Source of the DNA: Neptunicoccus cionae
GTDB taxonomy: Bacteria; Pseudomonadota; Alphaproteobacteria; Rhodobacterales; Rhodobacteraceae
Assembly (NCBI RefSeq): GCF_014643735.1
Contig: NZ_BMKA01000005.1
Coordinates: 245 to 64,244 of the forward strand
DNA length: 64,000 nucleotides
Reading direction: 5' to 3'
Below the pieces are notes generated by a model, which did not search any database, was not told the DNA's origin, and was given only the letters and a program-made list of their open reading frames with translations. The position numbers and the translations under genes were made by a program. Of the stretch, positions 57,218 through 64,000 are shown piece by piece; position 1 is the stretch's first letter; each line of letters starts with the position of its first letter.

Positions 57218-58612
57218 TTACTGGGGGTCCACGGGGCGGATTGCGGCGTGTGCGGCTTCGATATCCCGTCCTGCGGCAATCAGGATGTCCTCGCGGTAGC
57301 GCCGCGCCAGCAATTGCACGCCCATCGGCTTACCCGCCGCTTGTCCCGTCGCCACAGCCAACCCCGGAAGGCCAAGTGCGGGAACCGCAAGCTGGGTCAG
57401 TTGCGATTGCATGATTGCTTTGAAACCCTCTTCAGATTGAACGTCGGCCTGTTGGTCAAAGGGCAGCATTCCGGAAATCGGACAGATCAGCACCGAATAC
57501 TGCGCCAGAAACAACTGCCACTGACGCAGGTGGGTAACACGGTCCCGCAGCGCATCCAGCAGGCCACCCGCATCCACAGGCGCGGACAGGGATTGCATTA
57601 CTGCAAACACATGCTGGCTGTCCGGTTCGCCCTCTTGTTCCATCATCCGGTCCACACCCTGCCGCATCTCTGCCAGCCACAGTTTGGCGTTTATGTCCGC
57701 AGCGGGTTGCATGGGGGGGCAGTCGACTTCTTCCACCTCCCAGCCTGCATCGGTCAGATTTTTCGCCGCCGCGCGTAGGGCGGACTCTATTTCGGGGGCA
57801 ATCTCCATCCCGTCAGGCCGCACACACAGGGCCGCACGGCGCGGGAAATCGCCCTGATCAATCGGCGCTGGCACATACCACGGATCGCGCAGATCCTCGA
57901 CGGCCATCGCCCGCAGGCTAAGATCAATGTCATCCATGCTCCGCGCCAGAGGCCCGCCCACAGCCATCAGCTGCCCGCCAATATGCCGGTCCGCGCCCGA
58001 AGGGTTATAGGCTGGCAACCGGCCGAGCGTTGGCCGCAAACCGTGAATGCCACAGGCATAGGCGGGATAGCGGATCGACCCGCCGATATCCGTGCCATGC
58101 CCCACAGCCGCCATACCGCTCGCGACAGAGGACCCTGCCCCGCCGGACGACCCACCCGGAGTAATGTCTTTCCCATGGGGGTTGAGTGTCTGGCCGTGCA
58201 GGTTGTTCTTGGTAAACCAGCGCAGCGAAAACGCCGGCGTATTGGTGCGACCGACAATAATTGCCCCTGCTTTGCGCATGTTGGACACCACGGGGCTGTC
58301 CTCCTCTGCCACAAGGTTTTCCAGCAACTTCAAGCCGTTGGTGGTGGCGTGGCCCGCCTGATCCACATTCACCTTAATCGTCACCGGAACGCCCGCCATC
58401 GGCCCGACTTCACGCCCGGCGGCAATATCCGCATCAACCGCTGCAGCTGCCGATAACGCCTCCTCGGGCATATGTTGCACCACAGCGTTTAGCACGGGGT
58501 TTACCGCATCAATTCGTTCCAAATGGGCTTTGGTGACTTCGCAAGCGGAAAGGTCTTTGTTGCGGATCTTTGCTGCAATTTCGGTGGCGCTCAGGGTCCA
58601 GAGTTCGGACAT
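57218..58612 (-). CDS. Amidase (amidase signature family)
   Basis: 464-aa hydrolase with the Ser-cisSer-Lys triad: Lys80 (VPVTIKVN), cis-Ser155 (GGSSGGAG) and nucleophile Ser179 (DIGGSIR). It hydrolyses a carboxamide to acid and ammonia in the cytoplasm, with the substrate not readable. ATG 58612 follows an upstream AGTTACC-like stretch and lacks a strong ribosome site. It lies divergent from the small membrane protein gene. Confidence 0.92.
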   Translation of the reverse strand: MSELWTLSATEIAAKIRNKDLSACEVTKAHLERIDAVNPVLNAVVQHMPEEALSAAAAVDADIAAGREVGPMAGVPVTIKVNVDQAGHATTNGLKLLENLVAEEDSPVVSNMRKAGAIIVGRTNTPAFSLRWFTKNNLHGQTLNPHGKDITPGGSSGGAGSSVASGMAAVGHGTDIGGSIRYPAYACGIHGLRPTLGRLPAYNPSGADRHIGGQLMAVGGPLARSMDDIDLSLRAMAVEDLRDPWYVPAPIDQGDFPRRAALCVRPDGMEIAPEIESALRAAAKNLTDAGWEVEEVDCPPMQPAADINAKLWLAEMRQGVDRMMEQEGEPDSQHVFAVMQSLSAPVDAGGLLDALRDRVTHLRQWQLFLAQYSVLICPISGMLPFDQQADVQSEEGFKAIMQSQLTQLAVPALGLPGLAVATGQAAGKPMGVQLLARRYREDILIAAGRDIEAAHAAIRPVDPQ

Positions 58613-58771
58613 TTTCGGTAACTCCTAATCTATTCTATCGCATCGTGGCACCACCCGAGCCTGATGTGCAACGGGATTCTTTCCCTTAAGGCATGCAGAG
58701 TCTTTGGAACCTTTCCCGCGCGCACGGGTTGGATAGGTGAAACCCATATTTTAAACGGAAAGGTCGAACGC

Positions 58772-58960
58772 ATGTCCGCCCCTGAAACCAACGTTGAGAA
58801 ACAGAAGAAACGCCACTATGGTCCACTGCTCGGAATGATCGCGATTGGTGCTGGTGCCATACTTGTTATGCTGACGCTGACCTATCTGTCGGACGATGTG
58901 ACAGATGAAGGCGTTACCGGCACCATCCCCGAAAACTCCGCTACTGTTGAAGGCAGCTAG
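58772..58960 (+). CDS. Small single-pass membrane protein, unknown function
   Basis: 62 aa from ATG 58772, which has GGAAAGG upstream. A basic segment (KQKKRHYG) precedes one hydrophobic helix (about residues 18-40, LLGMIAIGAGAILVMLTLTY), followed by an acidic tail rich in Asp, Glu and Thr. This charge pattern predicts an N-in topology with the tail in the periplasm. I do not recognise a family. The frame upstream to 58664 is unlikely to be coding. A strong hairpin terminator follows, so it is a complete single-gene unit. Confidence 0.68.
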   Translation: MSAPETNVEKQKKRHYGPLLGMIAIGAGAILVMLTLTYLSDDVTDEGVTGTIPENSATVEGS

Positions 58961-59033
58961 GAATTTTGCGCGCGCGGTATTTGATCGCTGCGCTTTCGAA
59001 AACTCCATAGGGCAATTTCTGCCCATAGCGCCT

Positions 59034-59085
59034 GAAAGGCCTGCTCGCGTTGTCCTCCCCAATGCGAGCAGGCCTTTCACTTTTG
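59034..59085 (+). terminator. Long-stem terminator after the small membrane protein gene
   Basis: GAAAGGCCTGCTCGC (59034-59048) and GCGAGCAGGCCTTTC (59064-59078) form a perfect 15-bp stem with a 15-nt loop, followed by ACTTTTGCTTC. It lies between convergent genes and may also stop the aminotransferase operon. Confidence 0.8.
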
Positions 59086-59102: not shown

Positions 59103-60425
59103 TCACGCCAGCCCCGCATCCACCGCCTTTGACAACTTACCGACCAGTTCGTCTATCTGGGGGTCGGTGATGATAAAGGGCGGGGCCAGTAGAACGTGAT
59201 CGCCGCTCTGCCCGTCGATCGTGCCGCTCATCGGATAGCAGATCATGCCTGCCTCAAACGCTGCGGCCTTAATTCGTGCGGCGGTTTTGCGGTCCGGATC
59301 AAGCGGGGCTTTTGTCATCCGGTCCGCCACCAGTTCCACGCCGACAAAAAGACCGCGCCCGCGAATGTCCCCGATATTGAGATGTGTCCCGAATTCAGCC
59401 GCGAGAGCGGTGCGCAGCTTGTGGCCCTGCCTATCAGCCGCGCTGACCAGATCACGCCCGAGTAAAGATTTCACCACCGCAACTCCTGCCGCAGCTGCGC
59501 AAGGGTGCCCGATATAGGTGTGGCCGTGCTGGAAAAAGCCGCTACCATCTGCGATGGCTTGGTAGATTTGCTTGCTGCACAGCATCGCGCCGATGGGCTG
59601 ATACCCAGCACCCAAGCCCTTGGCGATACACAAAATATCAGGCGCCACCCCGTCTTGTTCGCAGGCAAACAGACTGCCGGTGCGCCCCATACCACACATA
59701 ACTTCGTCCAATATCAGCAGTATGCCGTACTGATCGCAAATCTCGCGGATGCGTTTGAAATAACCCTTAACGGCCGGTACAGCCCCCGCCGTGGCACCCA
59801 CGACAGGCTCCGCGATGAAGGCCATGACTGTTTCGGGGCCGACCCGTAACAGTTCCTCCTCCAACAGGTTGGCCGCGCGGATACCGTAAGCCTCCTCAGA
59901 CTCACCCTCCTGTTGCAAACGATAGGCGTAACAGGGATCAATGTGGCTCATATCGATCAGCAACGGGCCGAATTGTGCCCGCCGCCAAGCGTTGCCGCCC
60001 GCAGAAAGTGCGCCCATCGTGTTGCCGTGGTAACTTTGCTTTCGGGCGATCAAACGCCCCCGCTGCGGCTCACCTTTTTCCACAAAATACTGCCGCGCGA
60101 GCTTCAATGCGGCTTCGACCGCCTCTGACCCGCCGGACACAAGATAAACCCGATCCAGATCGCCGGGCGCATGTTCGATAAGCAGGTCTGCCAGCGTCTC
60201 CGCAGGCTCCGAGGTCAAAAATCCGGTGTGGGCATAGGCAAGACTGTCAAGCTGCGCTTTAACCGCTTCAATTACCGTGCGATCATTATGCCCAAGGCAG
60301 GACACCGCCGCCCCACCGGAAGCGTCGAGGTATTGTTTGCCATTGGAATCATAAAGATAGCAGCCATCGCCGCGCACAGCGACAGGCGGGTTCTGTTTGG
60401 TGTGGCGGGGAAAGATATGGGACAT
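59103..60425 (-). CDS. Class III pyridoxal-phosphate aminotransferase
   Basis: 440-aa fold-type I aminotransferase of the omega-amino acid/aspartate aminotransferase-family group. The PLP lysine is Lys269 in CIAKGLGAGYQPIGAM, the cofactor Asp is Asp240 in LILDEVMCGMGRTG, and SGGSEAVEAALKLARQY binds phosphate. It would move an amino group between an amine or omega-amino acid and a 2-oxo acid. It is the last gene of a four-gene operon, nine bases after the C45 gene, so its amine substrate may come from the decarboxylase product (inference). Confidence 0.92.
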   Translation of the reverse strand: MSHIFPRHTKQNPPVAVRGDGCYLYDSNGKQYLDASGGAAVSCLGHNDRTVIEAVKAQLDSLAYAHTGFLTSEPAETLADLLIEHAPGDLDRVYLVSGGSEAVEAALKLARQYFVEKGEPQRGRLIARKQSYHGNTMGALSAGGNAWRRAQFGPLLIDMSHIDPCYAYRLQQEGESEEAYGIRAANLLEEELLRVGPETVMAFIAEPVVGATAGAVPAVKGYFKRIREICDQYGILLILDEVMCGMGRTGSLFACEQDGVAPDILCIAKGLGAGYQPIGAMLCSKQIYQAIADGSGFFQHGHTYIGHPCAAAAGVAVVKSLLGRDLVSAADRQGHKLRTALAAEFGTHLNIGDIRGRGLFVGVELVADRMTKAPLDPDRKTAARIKAAAFEAGMICYPMSGTIDGQSGDHVLLAPPFIITDPQIDELVGKLSKAVDAGLA

Positions 60426-60434
60426 TACAGGCTC

Positions 60435-61406
60435 CTAAGCAGCGCCGGGGATCGTGACCTTCCGGCTCCCTTCGTTAAAATTATCCATAGAAAATGACCA
60501 GACCGTTCCTGGCCACCGGATTTCCATTTCTTGCAGTCTCGGGCGGTAGACGGCTGTGTAAAGCGTCCCGAACCCCGCATCGAAAGCGGTGGAATAGAGC
60601 GGCGGCTTCAGAAATGCACCAATAAAAGTTTCTTCTGGATCACGGTGTAAAGTTAGCCGCTGCAATAAGAACCTTTCCCGCTCTACTGTGGCTGTGAAGC
60701 GTGCGTGGCTGACCCATTCCACGTTTTCCTGATGGTTGGTGGCCACAGCCGCATGGGTGATGACCGCAGGCCGGTCCGGTGCCATCATTGCCGTCAAATA
60801 CTGCCGCTTCGCATCCAGCACAGTGACGTTATAGCTCATGTGGGTGGGCACACGGGCCAGCACCCTGCCCGCCTGTTCGGTGGTTTCACAGGTTTGCAGC
60901 ACATAACGCAGGATTAGCGGCACGCCAAAGCCGGTCCCGACCACGCGCCGACCTCCAAAGGTCAGGGAAATAGACAGGCCCGCGTCATTGCAACCGTCCA
61001 CCATCCCCCAAAGCCCGTCCGAAGTGCCCATCACACGGCGTCCCTGCCAGCCGGTGTGCAGGATCAGGCTGTCAAAGGCCTTCGGGTTGTAATCGTAATT
61101 GCGCACCAGAACCGGTTCCTTGCCAGTCCAAATCGCTTGTGAACATCCCGCTAGGTAAGGGGGCGGACAATAAAAGCTGAGAAAGCGCGCCGCCTGATCG
61201 CCGCCCCCTGCCAATTCGCACAATTCGTCGTAAAGTGGCACGATTTCAGGCATGTGGGTTTCAAGCGCACGGCGGCTTTCCAGATAACTCGGGCGGGCGC
61301 TGTCGCCCTCCCGTTCCCACCAACGCTTGTAATGGGGCCAGTATTCGTCAAACAGCCCGGACCATTTTGCCCCGGGCTGTTGTTCGCTGATTGCGCGCCA
61401 GTACAT
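60435..61406 (-). CDS. C45 family Ntn-hydrolase / acyltransferase (acyl-CoA:6-APA acyltransferase-like)
   Basis: 323 aa. The candidate nucleophile is Cys88 in YLAGCSQAIW, followed by VLVRNYDYNP, the arrangement of the penicillin acyltransferase (AAT) family, which self-cleaves before this cysteine and transfers or removes acyl groups on amines. The region SDGLWGMVDGCNDAGLSISL and NHQENVEW also match the family. ATG 61406 follows AAGGA. It lies eight bases after the ATP-grasp gene and nine before the aminotransferase gene. It could acylate or deacylate the amine made by the operon; direction is unknown. Confidence 0.87.
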   Translation of the reverse strand: MYWRAISEQQPGAKWSGLFDEYWPHYKRWWEREGDSARPSYLESRRALETHMPEIVPLYDELCELAGGGDQAARFLSFYCPPPYLAGCSQAIWTGKEPVLVRNYDYNPKAFDSLILHTGWQGRRVMGTSDGLWGMVDGCNDAGLSISLTFGGRRVVGTGFGVPLILRYVLQTCETTEQAGRVLARVPTHMSYNVTVLDAKRQYLTAMMAPDRPAVITHAAVATNHQENVEWVSHARFTATVERERFLLQRLTLHRDPEETFIGAFLKPPLYSTAFDAGFGTLYTAVYRPRLQEMEIRWPGTVWSFSMDNFNEGSRKVTIPGAA

Positions 61407-61414
61407 GGCTGTCC

Positions 61415-62872
61415 TTACAAGATTTTAAAGGCCGGATCGGCCACCGCCGGACCAGCATCTGCCACAGGCAAGGCCTTGCCTTCAACGGATTGTTTGATGC
61501 CGTGAATCCACTTTTTCGCCCGCTCGTTCAACTGGAACCCTTTGGTCATAGAGCGCCCGCGGGTCACAAGAATGCCGATGTCCGCGCCTTCATAACGATA
61601 ATCGCCCGGTTGCAAGATACGCAGGAAAAACGCCTCGTTCTCGCTTTCCACAGCGCGGCGGTGATAGTCAAAGCGGTCAAACACCACCCGCCCGTCTTCG
61701 AGCATTTTGTAGATGCCCGTTTCCGGCGCATCGGTGCAAATATCCACGCTGTCATCGGTGTGTTTGATCACCATCTGGGACCAGCTGTCGATCATATCGG
61801 GATCGGCCCAACGGTTGTTCAGCTCATCAGTGTCCAGATCGAACTTCTTGCGCGAGAATTCCAGCAAATGGAACAGGAACAGCGGCGCGTCGGCGTGGGC
61901 AAAGGCGGCGTGGTTGGTCATGGAAGACGCGCCTGTGATGCGAGGGTTCAATTCCCCTAGCCATAGATCGCCGGTCTTTTTGTCGATCAGGAAGTCCAGT
62001 TCAAAATACCCGCGATAGCCTTCCTTGCGCAGTTGCTCCCCGAACTTGAAGGTCAGCTCCCGCGCCTTTTCACGCACCTTGGGCGGGAAAGCAGTGGATA
62101 GGATTTCATTGCCACACCAGCCGCCCCGATAGGGGGTCAGTTCGTCAAAGCCCACCAGTTCTGTCATCAACGGGCCTACGATGGTGCCTTCCTTGGTGGC
62201 GCAGCCCTCAATCGCGGAGCCACGGCAATCAATCCGCTTCATGATCTTGATCTCGCCCTCTCCGACGATTTCATGTTCATGACGCCGGAAGTCCGCTTCG
62301 TTCTTGATAAAGAAAGTTGTGTGACCGCTGTCCCCGAAGGCAGACTGCAGCACCAGATCATGTCCAAGCTTGGCTTTTTCGCAGGTTTTGCGCAGGTCTT
62401 CGTAATTCTTCACTTCCGCCAGCACGTTTGGCACCGAAGGCACACCCGCCTTGTTGCCGATCCGCACGGTTTCAATCTTGTTGTCCATCTTTGTGCGCAG
62501 CTTGGCTTTAGGGAACCAGACATCCGCGCCCAGCTCTTTGGACAGGCGTTCGGTTTCCTCGTCAAACATCAGAAAGACGAATTTCGGCTTGCCACCGCGC
62601 CGTTTGATGAAGTCGATGACCTCTTTGTGCTGCAGCAGATAGTTGTTGATGTCCTCAATGCTCTGGAATTCCGCATGGGGTTGTTCAGAGGGGCAGAACA
62701 CATTCGGGTGCTTGCCGCCGTAACAATCTATGTAGCAGATATATTTAAAGTTTTTCACCCACTCATCCAGACCGAGCAGGTTGAAGTTTGTCGCCGAAAT
62801 GAAATAGATCGGGTCTTCGTTGCGGTGAAAGAAGCGCCGGATCTCCGAGATATTTTTAAGCACTGTTGCCAT
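61415..62872 (-). CDS. ATP-grasp ligase (biotin carboxylase-like), stand-alone
   Basis: 485 aa with an ATP-grasp core. A conserved-type lysine occurs at 132 (NKIETVR), the glycine-rich ATP loop is about 175-184 (LQSAFGDSGHTT), and metal ligands are Glu291 (ELDF) and Glu307/Asn309 (GELNPRITG). The N-terminal 120 residues form a Rossmann-like pre-ATP-grasp part. There is no biotin-carboxyl-carrier lysine motif nor carboxyltransferase nearby, so an ATP-dependent carboxylate-amine ligase is more likely than a biotin carboxylase. It lies between the decarboxylase (14 bases) and C45 (8 bases) genes. Confidence 0.85.
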   Translation of the reverse strand: MATVLKNISEIRRFFHRNEDPIYFISATNFNLLGLDEWVKNFKYICYIDCYGGKHPNVFCPSEQPHAEFQSIEDINNYLLQHKEVIDFIKRRGGKPKFVFLMFDEETERLSKELGADVWFPKAKLRTKMDNKIETVRIGNKAGVPSVPNVLAEVKNYEDLRKTCEKAKLGHDLVLQSAFGDSGHTTFFIKNEADFRRHEHEIVGEGEIKIMKRIDCRGSAIEGCATKEGTIVGPLMTELVGFDELTPYRGGWCGNEILSTAFPPKVREKARELTFKFGEQLRKEGYRGYFELDFLIDKKTGDLWLGELNPRITGASSMTNHAAFAHADAPLFLFHLLEFSRKKFDLDTDELNNRWADPDMIDSWSQMVIKHTDDSVDICTDAPETGIYKMLEDGRVVFDRFDYHRRAVESENEAFFLRILQPGDYRYEGADIGILVTRGRSMTKGFQLNERAKKWIHGIKQSVEGKALPVADAGPAVADPAFKIL

Positions 62873-62886
62873 AGTATTGTCCTTTA

Positions 62887-64000
62887 TTATTCGGCTGCGG
62901 TTTTAATGGATTTGTCTTTGTTCAGGGCGTTAAGCGCGTCTTGGGTAAAGACACGAAGCCCCAGATCGGCGCGGTAGCCGTGGATTTCATTCACGTCGAG
63001 CGCGCGCATAAAGTCGAGGATTTCGCGGCTGATCACTTGTCCGGGAACAAGGATCGGAAAGCCGGGGGGATAGGGAATGATGAAACTGGCCGAGACTAGT
63101 TCCCGTCCTTCCTCCATCGCCTGTTTCAACGAACCGTTCAGTTCCAAATAATCACAGTTTTTTTCATCGTAGCTCAGGTAATACGCACTGCGAATATCCC
63201 CTTCCGGTGTCAGATCGTCAGGGCGGAAAGCATCATGGAAGCGGCTGAAATCAGGCAGCGGCGGATAATTTTCCGTCAGGTTTGCCACGCGCCGATCAAA
63301 GGATAGACGCTCCATTTTCGACGCATCGTCCAGCAGGTCGTCCAGCTCGTTCGCGATTTCCACCAGCACTTCGATCAGATAAGCGACCGAGGATCGCGTG
63401 GTGCCGATATTGGTCATAAATAACACGGTATTGCGGGAGGTTTTGTTGATCTGGATGCCGTATTTATCCATCAAAACCTGATTCTTGAACGTATCCCCGT
63501 CCCATCCGGTGCCCCCCACAGCCAGTGTGACGCGGGTTGCATCCAGAACGAAATCGTCCCTTTCCCAACACTCCCACATGTCGGTCCAGCCCTGTTCGGT
63601 ATCAAAATAGGTGCTGACACCGCTTTGGCGATAGCTGTCAGGGATCATGTCCCCAGCCGTTAACACCTTGAAGTATTTCTGCAAAAGGGGATGGCTGCTG
63701 ATGGCGCGGCGCAGGGCCATTGCGGCCTCTATCTGGCGCTGGACAAATTCAAACCCTTCCAGTTCCACCTGCCGTCGCCCCACATCAAGGGATGCGATGA
63801 TCTGGTAGTTGGGGGATGTGGACGTGTGGGTCATGTAGGCTTCATGAAAGCTTTGCTCGACCTCGCCCTTGAAGTCCTGATCGTTGACGTGGATCATCGA
63901 CCCCTGCCGTAGGGACGTCAGGGTTTTATGGGTGGATTGCGTGGCATAGGCCCTGACCCGCGCAGTCGGTGGCGGGATCAGCCGCACATCAAGCAGGTCT
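62887..64000 (-). CDS. Orn/Lys/Arg decarboxylase family protein (5' part outside window)
   Basis: 370 codons are visible and the frame is open through the right edge, so the N-terminal part, including part of the PLP domain, is missing. The PLP lysine lies in the motif ATQSTHKTLTSLRQGSMIH (Lys codon at 63925-63927). HTSTSPNYQIIASLDVGRRQ follows, as in fold-type I ornithine, lysine and arginine decarboxylases, and the C-terminal domain has PYPPGFPILVPGQ. It would make a diamine or other amine. First visible gene of the operon with the ATP-grasp, C45 and aminotransferase genes. Confidence 0.88.
   Translation of the reverse strand, partial: DLLDVRLIPPPTARVRAYATQSTHKTLTSLRQGSMIHVNDQDFKGEVEQSFHEAYMTHTSTSPNYQIIASLDVGRRQVELEGFEFVQRQIEAAMALRRAISSHPLLQKYFKVLTAGDMIPDSYRQSGVSTYFDTEQGWTDMWECWERDDFVLDATRVTLAVGGTGWDGDTFKNQVLMDKYGIQINKTSRNTVLFMTNIGTTRSSVAYLIEVLVEIANELDDLLDDASKMERLSFDRRVANLTENYPPLPDFSRFHDAFRPDDLTPEGDIRSAYYLSYDEKNCDYLELNGSLKQAMEEGRELVSASFIIPYPPGFPILVPGQVISREILDFMRALDVNEIHGYRADLGLRVFTQDALNALNKDKSIKTAAE

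Follow-up and report, generated by a model that had tools for sequence, protein, structure and literature searches.

In the Puu putrescine pathway (PuuA-PuuD), an amine is acylated in an ATP-dependent step, its free end is oxidised, the amide is hydrolysed and gamma-aminobutyric acid (GABA) is formed. The C45/AAT family includes isopenicillin N acyltransferase and Tan. In the biosynthesis of E-64, according to the available part of one report (PMC12568646), Cp1B is an ATP-grasp enzyme and coupling of the amine needs a separate amide bond synthetase, Cp1D. Here we describe an operon in a 64,000-nucleotide stretch of Neptunicoccus cionae DNA (contig NZ_BMKA01000005.1, positions 245 to 64,244; hereafter the window), which encodes a pyridoxal phosphate (PLP) decarboxylase, an ATP-grasp protein and an N-terminal nucleophile (Ntn) enzyme of the C45 type. 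With a nitrilase-family hydrolase (CNH), these three form a conserved module.

In its proposed logic the module would resemble Puu: acylate an amine, oxidise the free end, hydrolyse the amide and yield GABA. The enzymes that would do so match families other than those of Puu. Its ligase is an ATP-grasp protein, whereas PuuA has a glutamine-synthetase fold; its hydrolase is an Ntn C45 protein, whereas PuuD is a class I amidotransferase-type hydrolase; and, unlike Puu, the module links a dedicated decarboxylase and a nitrilase-family enzyme to these. The E-64 pathway has an ATP-grasp amide ligase, a feature the module would share, and ends in an amine that comes from a PLP decarboxylase, but it is fungal and, in the part of the report that describes it, contains no C45 or CNH protein (PMC12568646). 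We found no description of this enzyme combination in the open-licence PMC literature; an earlier account may well exist in a subscription journal.

A conserved unit of four enzymes

The four genes of the window operon all lie on the minus strand. The original prediction gave the gaps between them as 14, 8 and 9 bases, in agreement with the list of open reading frames, and the families it named for them are those matched in Pfam and NCBIfam. The operon enters the window with a long PLP decarboxylase of the OKR type, present there as its C-terminal part (62887..63999; PF01276 and PF03711; OKR_DC_1 at E 1.5e-22), which is open at the window end. It continues with the ATP-grasp protein of 485 residues (61415..62872), a C45/AAT-type Ntn hydrolase or acyltransferase of 323 residues (60435..61406; AAT domain at E 4.2e-30, NF040521 at E 1.3e-55) and a class III aminotransferase as an accessory member (59103..60425; Aminotran_3 at E 6.3e-100, NF005685). 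AGGA or AGGAG stands ahead of all three internal starts, and the spacing suggests that the four genes form a single transcript. A promoter scan found 2 promoters against 3.8 expected, and searches of the window for RNA families and tRNAs found none.

Relatives of the ATP-grasp protein were gathered from plasmids (32 records), from genome contigs (the best 80 of 494 relatives) and from further sampled genomes, giving 123 loci that each hold a single ATP-grasp gene; its neighbours were assigned by BLAST against a reference set. The genome samples yielded 11/398 (phylum), 8/299 (an overlapping draw), 7/293 (one order) and 10/385 (class). Eighty of the 123 loci, the closest relatives from the genome-contig scan, are 90-99% alike to the window ATP-grasp protein; loci L087-L106 (short or repeated) and L132 and L133 (C45 only) stand outside the counts. 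Close relatives dominate the loci, which were also clustered at 80% identity into 22 clusters, with a distance of up to 1.5 kb accepted there for C45 and the decarboxylase.

The conserved unit across these loci is CNH – decarboxylase – ATP-grasp – C45. C45 lies within 600 bases of ATP-grasp on the same strand in 115/123 loci; the remaining eight comprise three at contig ends (L019, L048, L143), three with C45 nearby on the opposite strand (L109, L119, L122, of which L109 and L122 are 44% and 45% identical to the window protein), one with C45 2.4 kb off (L128) and one with none (L142). The decarboxylase lies within 600 bases of ATP-grasp in 111/123 and beyond C45 in four more (L112, L113, L114, L121), and is not nearby in eight (L002, L117, L118, L119, L124, L134, L142, L144). 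CNH belongs to this core: it is found at most 8 kb from ATP-grasp in 108/123 loci, and 6 of the 15 misses, the window among them, are cut by sequence ends. At the level of the 22 clusters, C45 is present in 18, the decarboxylase in 17, CNH in 14, a ureohydrolase in 3, the aminotransferase in 2 and the amidase described below in 1. A divergent ATP-grasp group (L117, L118, L119, L124, L144; 46-58% identity) keeps C45 and CNH with no adjacent decarboxylase, and three of its genomes (G444, G440, G580) have no decarboxylase match at E 1e-40.

The original prediction had proposed asking whether the neighbourhood is conserved past close relatives, and it is: the order decarboxylase–ATP-grasp–C45 is still present at 41-44% identity (L123, L107, L108). 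It also proposed looking upstream for the decarboxylase N-terminus and further genes. In Neptunicoccus sediminis (L007), whose ATP-grasp protein is 99% identical to that of the window, the full-length decarboxylase has 913 residues and a CNH gene of 345 residues lies 62 bases upstream of it; TRAP-transporter (TAXI) and LysR-type genes, recognised by eye from the sequence, lie farther upstream. Three members of the predicted four-gene set, namely the decarboxylase, ATP-grasp and C45, thus stand as core. The aminotransferase was rejected as a core member, with relatives of at least 60% identity at most 3 kb downstream in 31/123 loci (113 loci have at least 2.8 kb of downstream sequence) and in 2/22 clusters.

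Co-occurrence across genomes points the same way. Among 198 sampled genomes of the family, ATP-grasp was found in 36 (E 1e-100) and the decarboxylase in 32 (E 1e-60), and all 32 fall within the 36, with no decarboxylase in the other 162; the hypergeometric probability of this overlap is 7e-33, a figure that takes no account of kinship. Fourteen named control genomes had no ATP-grasp match at the strict threshold, and at E 0.001 weak matches appeared in eight, none over the cut-off. Pairwise distances among the four core proteins correlate with r of 0.86-0.94 (30 loci, 24 for CNH; 0/1000 permutations each), a correlation that could arise by vertical inheritance alone, as kinship was not removed. 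The core module is, with high confidence, a real functional unit.

Families and active sites of the core enzymes

The window ATP-grasp protein passes the cut-off of NF005096 (PRK06524), labelled 'biotin carboxylase', with 752.8 bits against 684. It matches no Pfam family at E 0.001, CPSase_L_D2 matches weakly (7/7), and its closest solved relatives, biotin carboxylases and carbamoyl-phosphate synthetase, are weak matches as well (best E 5.9e-6; 1.1e-6). At the sequence level it has the E-x-N-x-R ATP/Mg motif and Gly-rich loop of the ATP-grasp superfamily, and its E-x-NPR motif and [FY]GDSG loop are kept in 30/30 aligned loci. The biotin-enzyme name conflicts with the residues at the presumed biotin and bicarbonate site. 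Against a single comparator, a biotin-carboxylase-like protein recognised by eye in L124, EMNTRIQVEHP aligns with ELNPRITGASS in a weak alignment (probability 81). In that alignment the metal ligands are kept, and of the residues that we take to form the biotin carboxylase site in E. coli numbering (the catalytic Glu E296, Q294, K238 and, at the ATP site, Lys159), E296 is replaced by Ala, Gln294 by Thr and Lys159 by Gln, with no matching Lys in the K238 region. No biotin-carrier family appears among the best 25 matches listed for each of the four operon proteins. The original prediction's view of an ATP-dependent ligase with no biotin partner agrees with these observations. Identity as a biotin carboxylase was rejected on the changed residues and the label is probably wrong; we read the protein as a putative carboxylate-amine (amide) ligase.

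The same residues bear on a different chemistry, in which the ATP-grasp protein would carboxylate an amine, guanidine or urea nitrogen with bicarbonate, independently of biotin, and the two hydrolases would cleave the product. The nearest profile relatives, biotin carboxylases and carbamoyl-phosphate synthetase, make carboxyphosphate, and urea-forming enzymes adjoin the module in a few loci. Set against this are the altered site residues, and C45 is not, to our knowledge, a known decarbamoylase. We consider such N-carboxylation improbable.

The C45 protein shares the AAT domain and Gly-Cys site of the C45/AAT family, and the domain together with the Cys nucleophile places it among Ntn enzymes. 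Cys88 (codon 61143-61145) is kept in 30/30 aligned loci, and self-cleavage is predicted to occur before it; the residue in front is Gly in 28 loci and Ala in the other two. The protein scores 189 bits against a cut-off of 85 for NF040521; besides this subfamily-level model there was no NCBIfam match, and at E 0.01 there was no match to a solved chain. L132 (8914-11083), from a Sulfitobacter pontiacus plasmid, has a C45 paralog of 44% identity located after a PHB-depolymerase-family esterase, with no ATP-grasp gene nearby. The Glu, Lys and Cys of CNH are kept in 24/24 aligned loci. CNH does not score as an N-carbamoylputrescine amidase (AguB), with 83.3 (L113), 74.2 (L137) and 79.3 bits (L112) against the TIGR03381 cut-off of 410, and the L007 protein matched no family at E 1e-20.

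The decarboxylase has the PLP lysine and domains of the OKR type, with its STHK (PLP-lysine) and DEAW motifs kept in 30/30 aligned loci, and scores well under the cut-offs of the named lysine, arginine and ornithine decarboxylases. Its closest solved relative is Rv2531c (PDB 9n0n/9n0o), which is related over the full length (E 6.8e-247 to 9n0n, residues 42-906) and whose activity has not been clarified, according to the available part of a review (PMC12910592). Decarboxylase relatives without ATP-grasp adjoin an AspT-type antiporter in L146, L147, L148 and L150, possibly as an acid-resistance decarboxylase/antiporter pair; the one in L146 also lies near an aspartate 4-decarboxylase and an HdeA/HdeB-family gene. 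These relatives form one separate clade on a long branch (100/100; 4 rows) and are therefore uninformative about the decarboxylase substrate in the module.

Such pairings could suggest that the enzymes belong to separate known pathways and lie together by chance or for regulatory reasons only, as could the solitary occurrence of C45 and CNH relatives (L132, L133; CNH relatives in Deinococcus and Streptomyces). Adjacency and co-occurrence in many lineages, even among the most distant loci, speak against that explanation, as does the separateness of the AspT-adjacent clade, and we regard it as very improbable.

Possible pathway and substrates

We tentatively favour a catabolic module in which acylation of an amine would serve as a temporary protecting group. 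The decarboxylase would act on a diamino or guanidino amino acid, with arginine, which would give agmatine, as the favoured substrate and 2,4-diaminobutyrate and ornithine as possible ones. The ATP-grasp protein would activate a carboxylic acid as an acyl phosphate and couple the acyl group to one of the amino groups. At its other end, the molecule would lose its nitrogen and be oxidised by partners that differ between lineages: here the class III aminotransferase, in other loci an aldehyde dehydrogenase or a ureohydrolase. The self-processing C45 protein, perhaps with CNH, would then cleave the amide, which would release the acid again and leave an omega-amino acid, for example GABA, to be used by GabT. 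The sequences themselves show the gene order, families, conserved catalytic residues and co-occurrence; we infer all of the reactions, as well as the substrate, the acyl group and which way the pathway runs. This proposal is favoured because the unit is conserved, the decarboxylase and ATP-grasp co-occur, the distances correlate and the neighbours are catabolic. The earlier suggestion that the operon may build, trim and recycle an amine conjugate remains reasonable.

Several neighbourhoods contain uptake or catabolic genes. TRAP transporter genes lie at most 9 kb away in 53/123 loci, GabT relatives (at least 50% identity, at most 12 kb) in 42/123 and an agmatinase-family gene (at most 12 kb) in 5/123, or 3/22 clusters; peptide-type ABC transporter genes stand beside the module in L001, L003 and L135. 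In L002 and L134, the genes around ATP-grasp and C45 bear the annotations 2-ketoarginine decarboxylase, agmatinase, aldehyde dehydrogenase, D-amino acid dehydrogenase and alanine racemase. Upstream genes in L137 and L139 exceed the TIGR01230 agmatinase cut-off, and a downstream gene in L082 is just over that of NF002564. In L113 and L121 the module sits inside an ectoine-breakdown set in which DoeA and DoeB, and in L113 also EutB, pass NCBIfam cut-offs; we take the dehydrogenase and aminotransferase next to them to be DoeC and DoeD. Directly upstream of the ectoine genes and module, L121 (12203-19352) encodes cyanophycin synthetase, isoaspartyl dipeptidase and cyanophycinase, all over their cut-offs. 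Such contexts point to catabolism, of an amino acid derived from arginine or ectoine, more than to the making of a product.

The alternative would be conjugate biosynthesis, in which the module makes an amide from a decarboxylated amino acid for storage, for export or to serve as an osmolyte or signal, and C45 acts as an acyltransferase or as a maturation or recycling enzyme. C45-type enzymes can act as acyltransferases, as the family name implies. L107 and L108, two of the three most distant loci, and L114 have the core without the recurring transport and catabolic genes searched for, Sym-plasmid copies adjoin nif genes, and PLP decarboxylase reasoning and ATP-grasp occur together in the E-64 work, in the part of it available (PMC12568646). 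The uptake-type TRAP and peptide-type ABC transporters, GabT and the insertion of the module among ectoine or arginine catabolic genes argue in the other direction, and no other typical biosynthetic enzymes recur. Biosynthesis is a doubtful reading, ranking close behind protecting-group catabolism.

The ectoine neighbourhoods also raise the question of substrate. The same protecting-group logic could apply to ectoine-derived 2,4-diaminobutyrate, converted through 1,3-diaminopropane to beta-alanine, rather than to arginine. Beyond L113 and L121, L112 has a similar ectoine-breakdown neighbourhood by eye, and decarboxylase relatives occur beside ectoine-use genes (L150) and at a distance of 2.7 kb from a gene labelled ectB (L149). 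L112, L113 and L121 fall in one 80% cluster of four members, though, an insertion element separates the decarboxylase from the ectB-labelled gene in L149, and arginine-related genes stand beside other clusters. We consider an ectoine-derived substrate unlikely.

A number of observations weigh against protecting-group catabolism of arginine. Four ATP-grasp-positive genomes of the family (G440, G444, G502, G580) have no decarboxylase at E 1e-60. Agmatinase-family genes are near-universal in the family, in 36/36 genomes with the module and 33/36 without, so their genome-wide presence is uninformative. L002 and L134 hold a complete arginine-to-GABA set without an adjacent decarboxylase (one is found elsewhere on the L134 plasmid, and the L002 plasmid gave no match), which leaves the role of ATP-grasp and C45 there unexplained. 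The ectoine neighbourhoods favour diaminobutyrate as much as arginine, the most distant loci (L107, L108, L123) have no recognised catabolic neighbours, and the aminotransferase is absent from most loci. Growth on arginine did not depend crucially on the mycobacterial decarboxylase relative, according to the available part of PMC4569260.

With these reservations, the module may give marine and symbiotic Pseudomonadota a new, widely distributed way of breaking down arginine or some other basic amino acid, a proposal we hold tentatively; in it, ATP-grasp would add and an Ntn hydrolase remove a protecting acyl group. It would be a non-homologous counterpart of polyamine gamma-glutamylation, or even a biotin-free N-carboxylation. 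The labels 'biotin carboxylase' and 'C45 peptidase' are misleading for this module, whose four enzymes keep their order down to about 41% identity. Working out its function could reveal a new step in how marine bacteria use nitrogen. It would also give a function to a group of long decarboxylases, one of which has a solved structure but, as the available part of the review has it, an unclear activity (PMC12910592).

The operon end and other settings of the module

Downstream of the aminotransferase, a hairpin (59033..59079; -37.4 kcal/mol, z -5.54) lies at the operon end, with a T-run on its plus-strand side only. In L007, two C-G pairs of the hairpin have become T-A by compensating changes, and there is one mismatch; in L008 and L009 the hairpin was unmatched by the loop pattern used. 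Beyond it, between the aminotransferase and an amidase gene, a plus-strand gene (58664-58960; 62 residues from the second Met, with one hydrophobic stretch) converges on the operon and is kept in L007, L008 and L009 (89, 69 and 69% identity). The amidase that the original prediction had noted nearby on the operon strand is real (57218-58612; PF01425, NF005687) and lies 490 bases from the operon. Because the convergent small gene and the hairpin intervene, it is probably a separate unit outside the operon transcript. Amidases of this type (at least 50% identity) occur in 4/123 loci, namely the window, L007, L008 and L009, and operon membership was rejected.

A search of a phage collection gave no match, and 52 pattern stretches in viral contigs included no relative. 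On annotated Rhizobium leguminosarum plasmids (L003, L135) the module lies beside nif genes, and these Sym-plasmid copies are perhaps relevant to symbiosis. Two-piece partial matches on Sinorhizobium medicae plasmids resemble decayed copies of the module.

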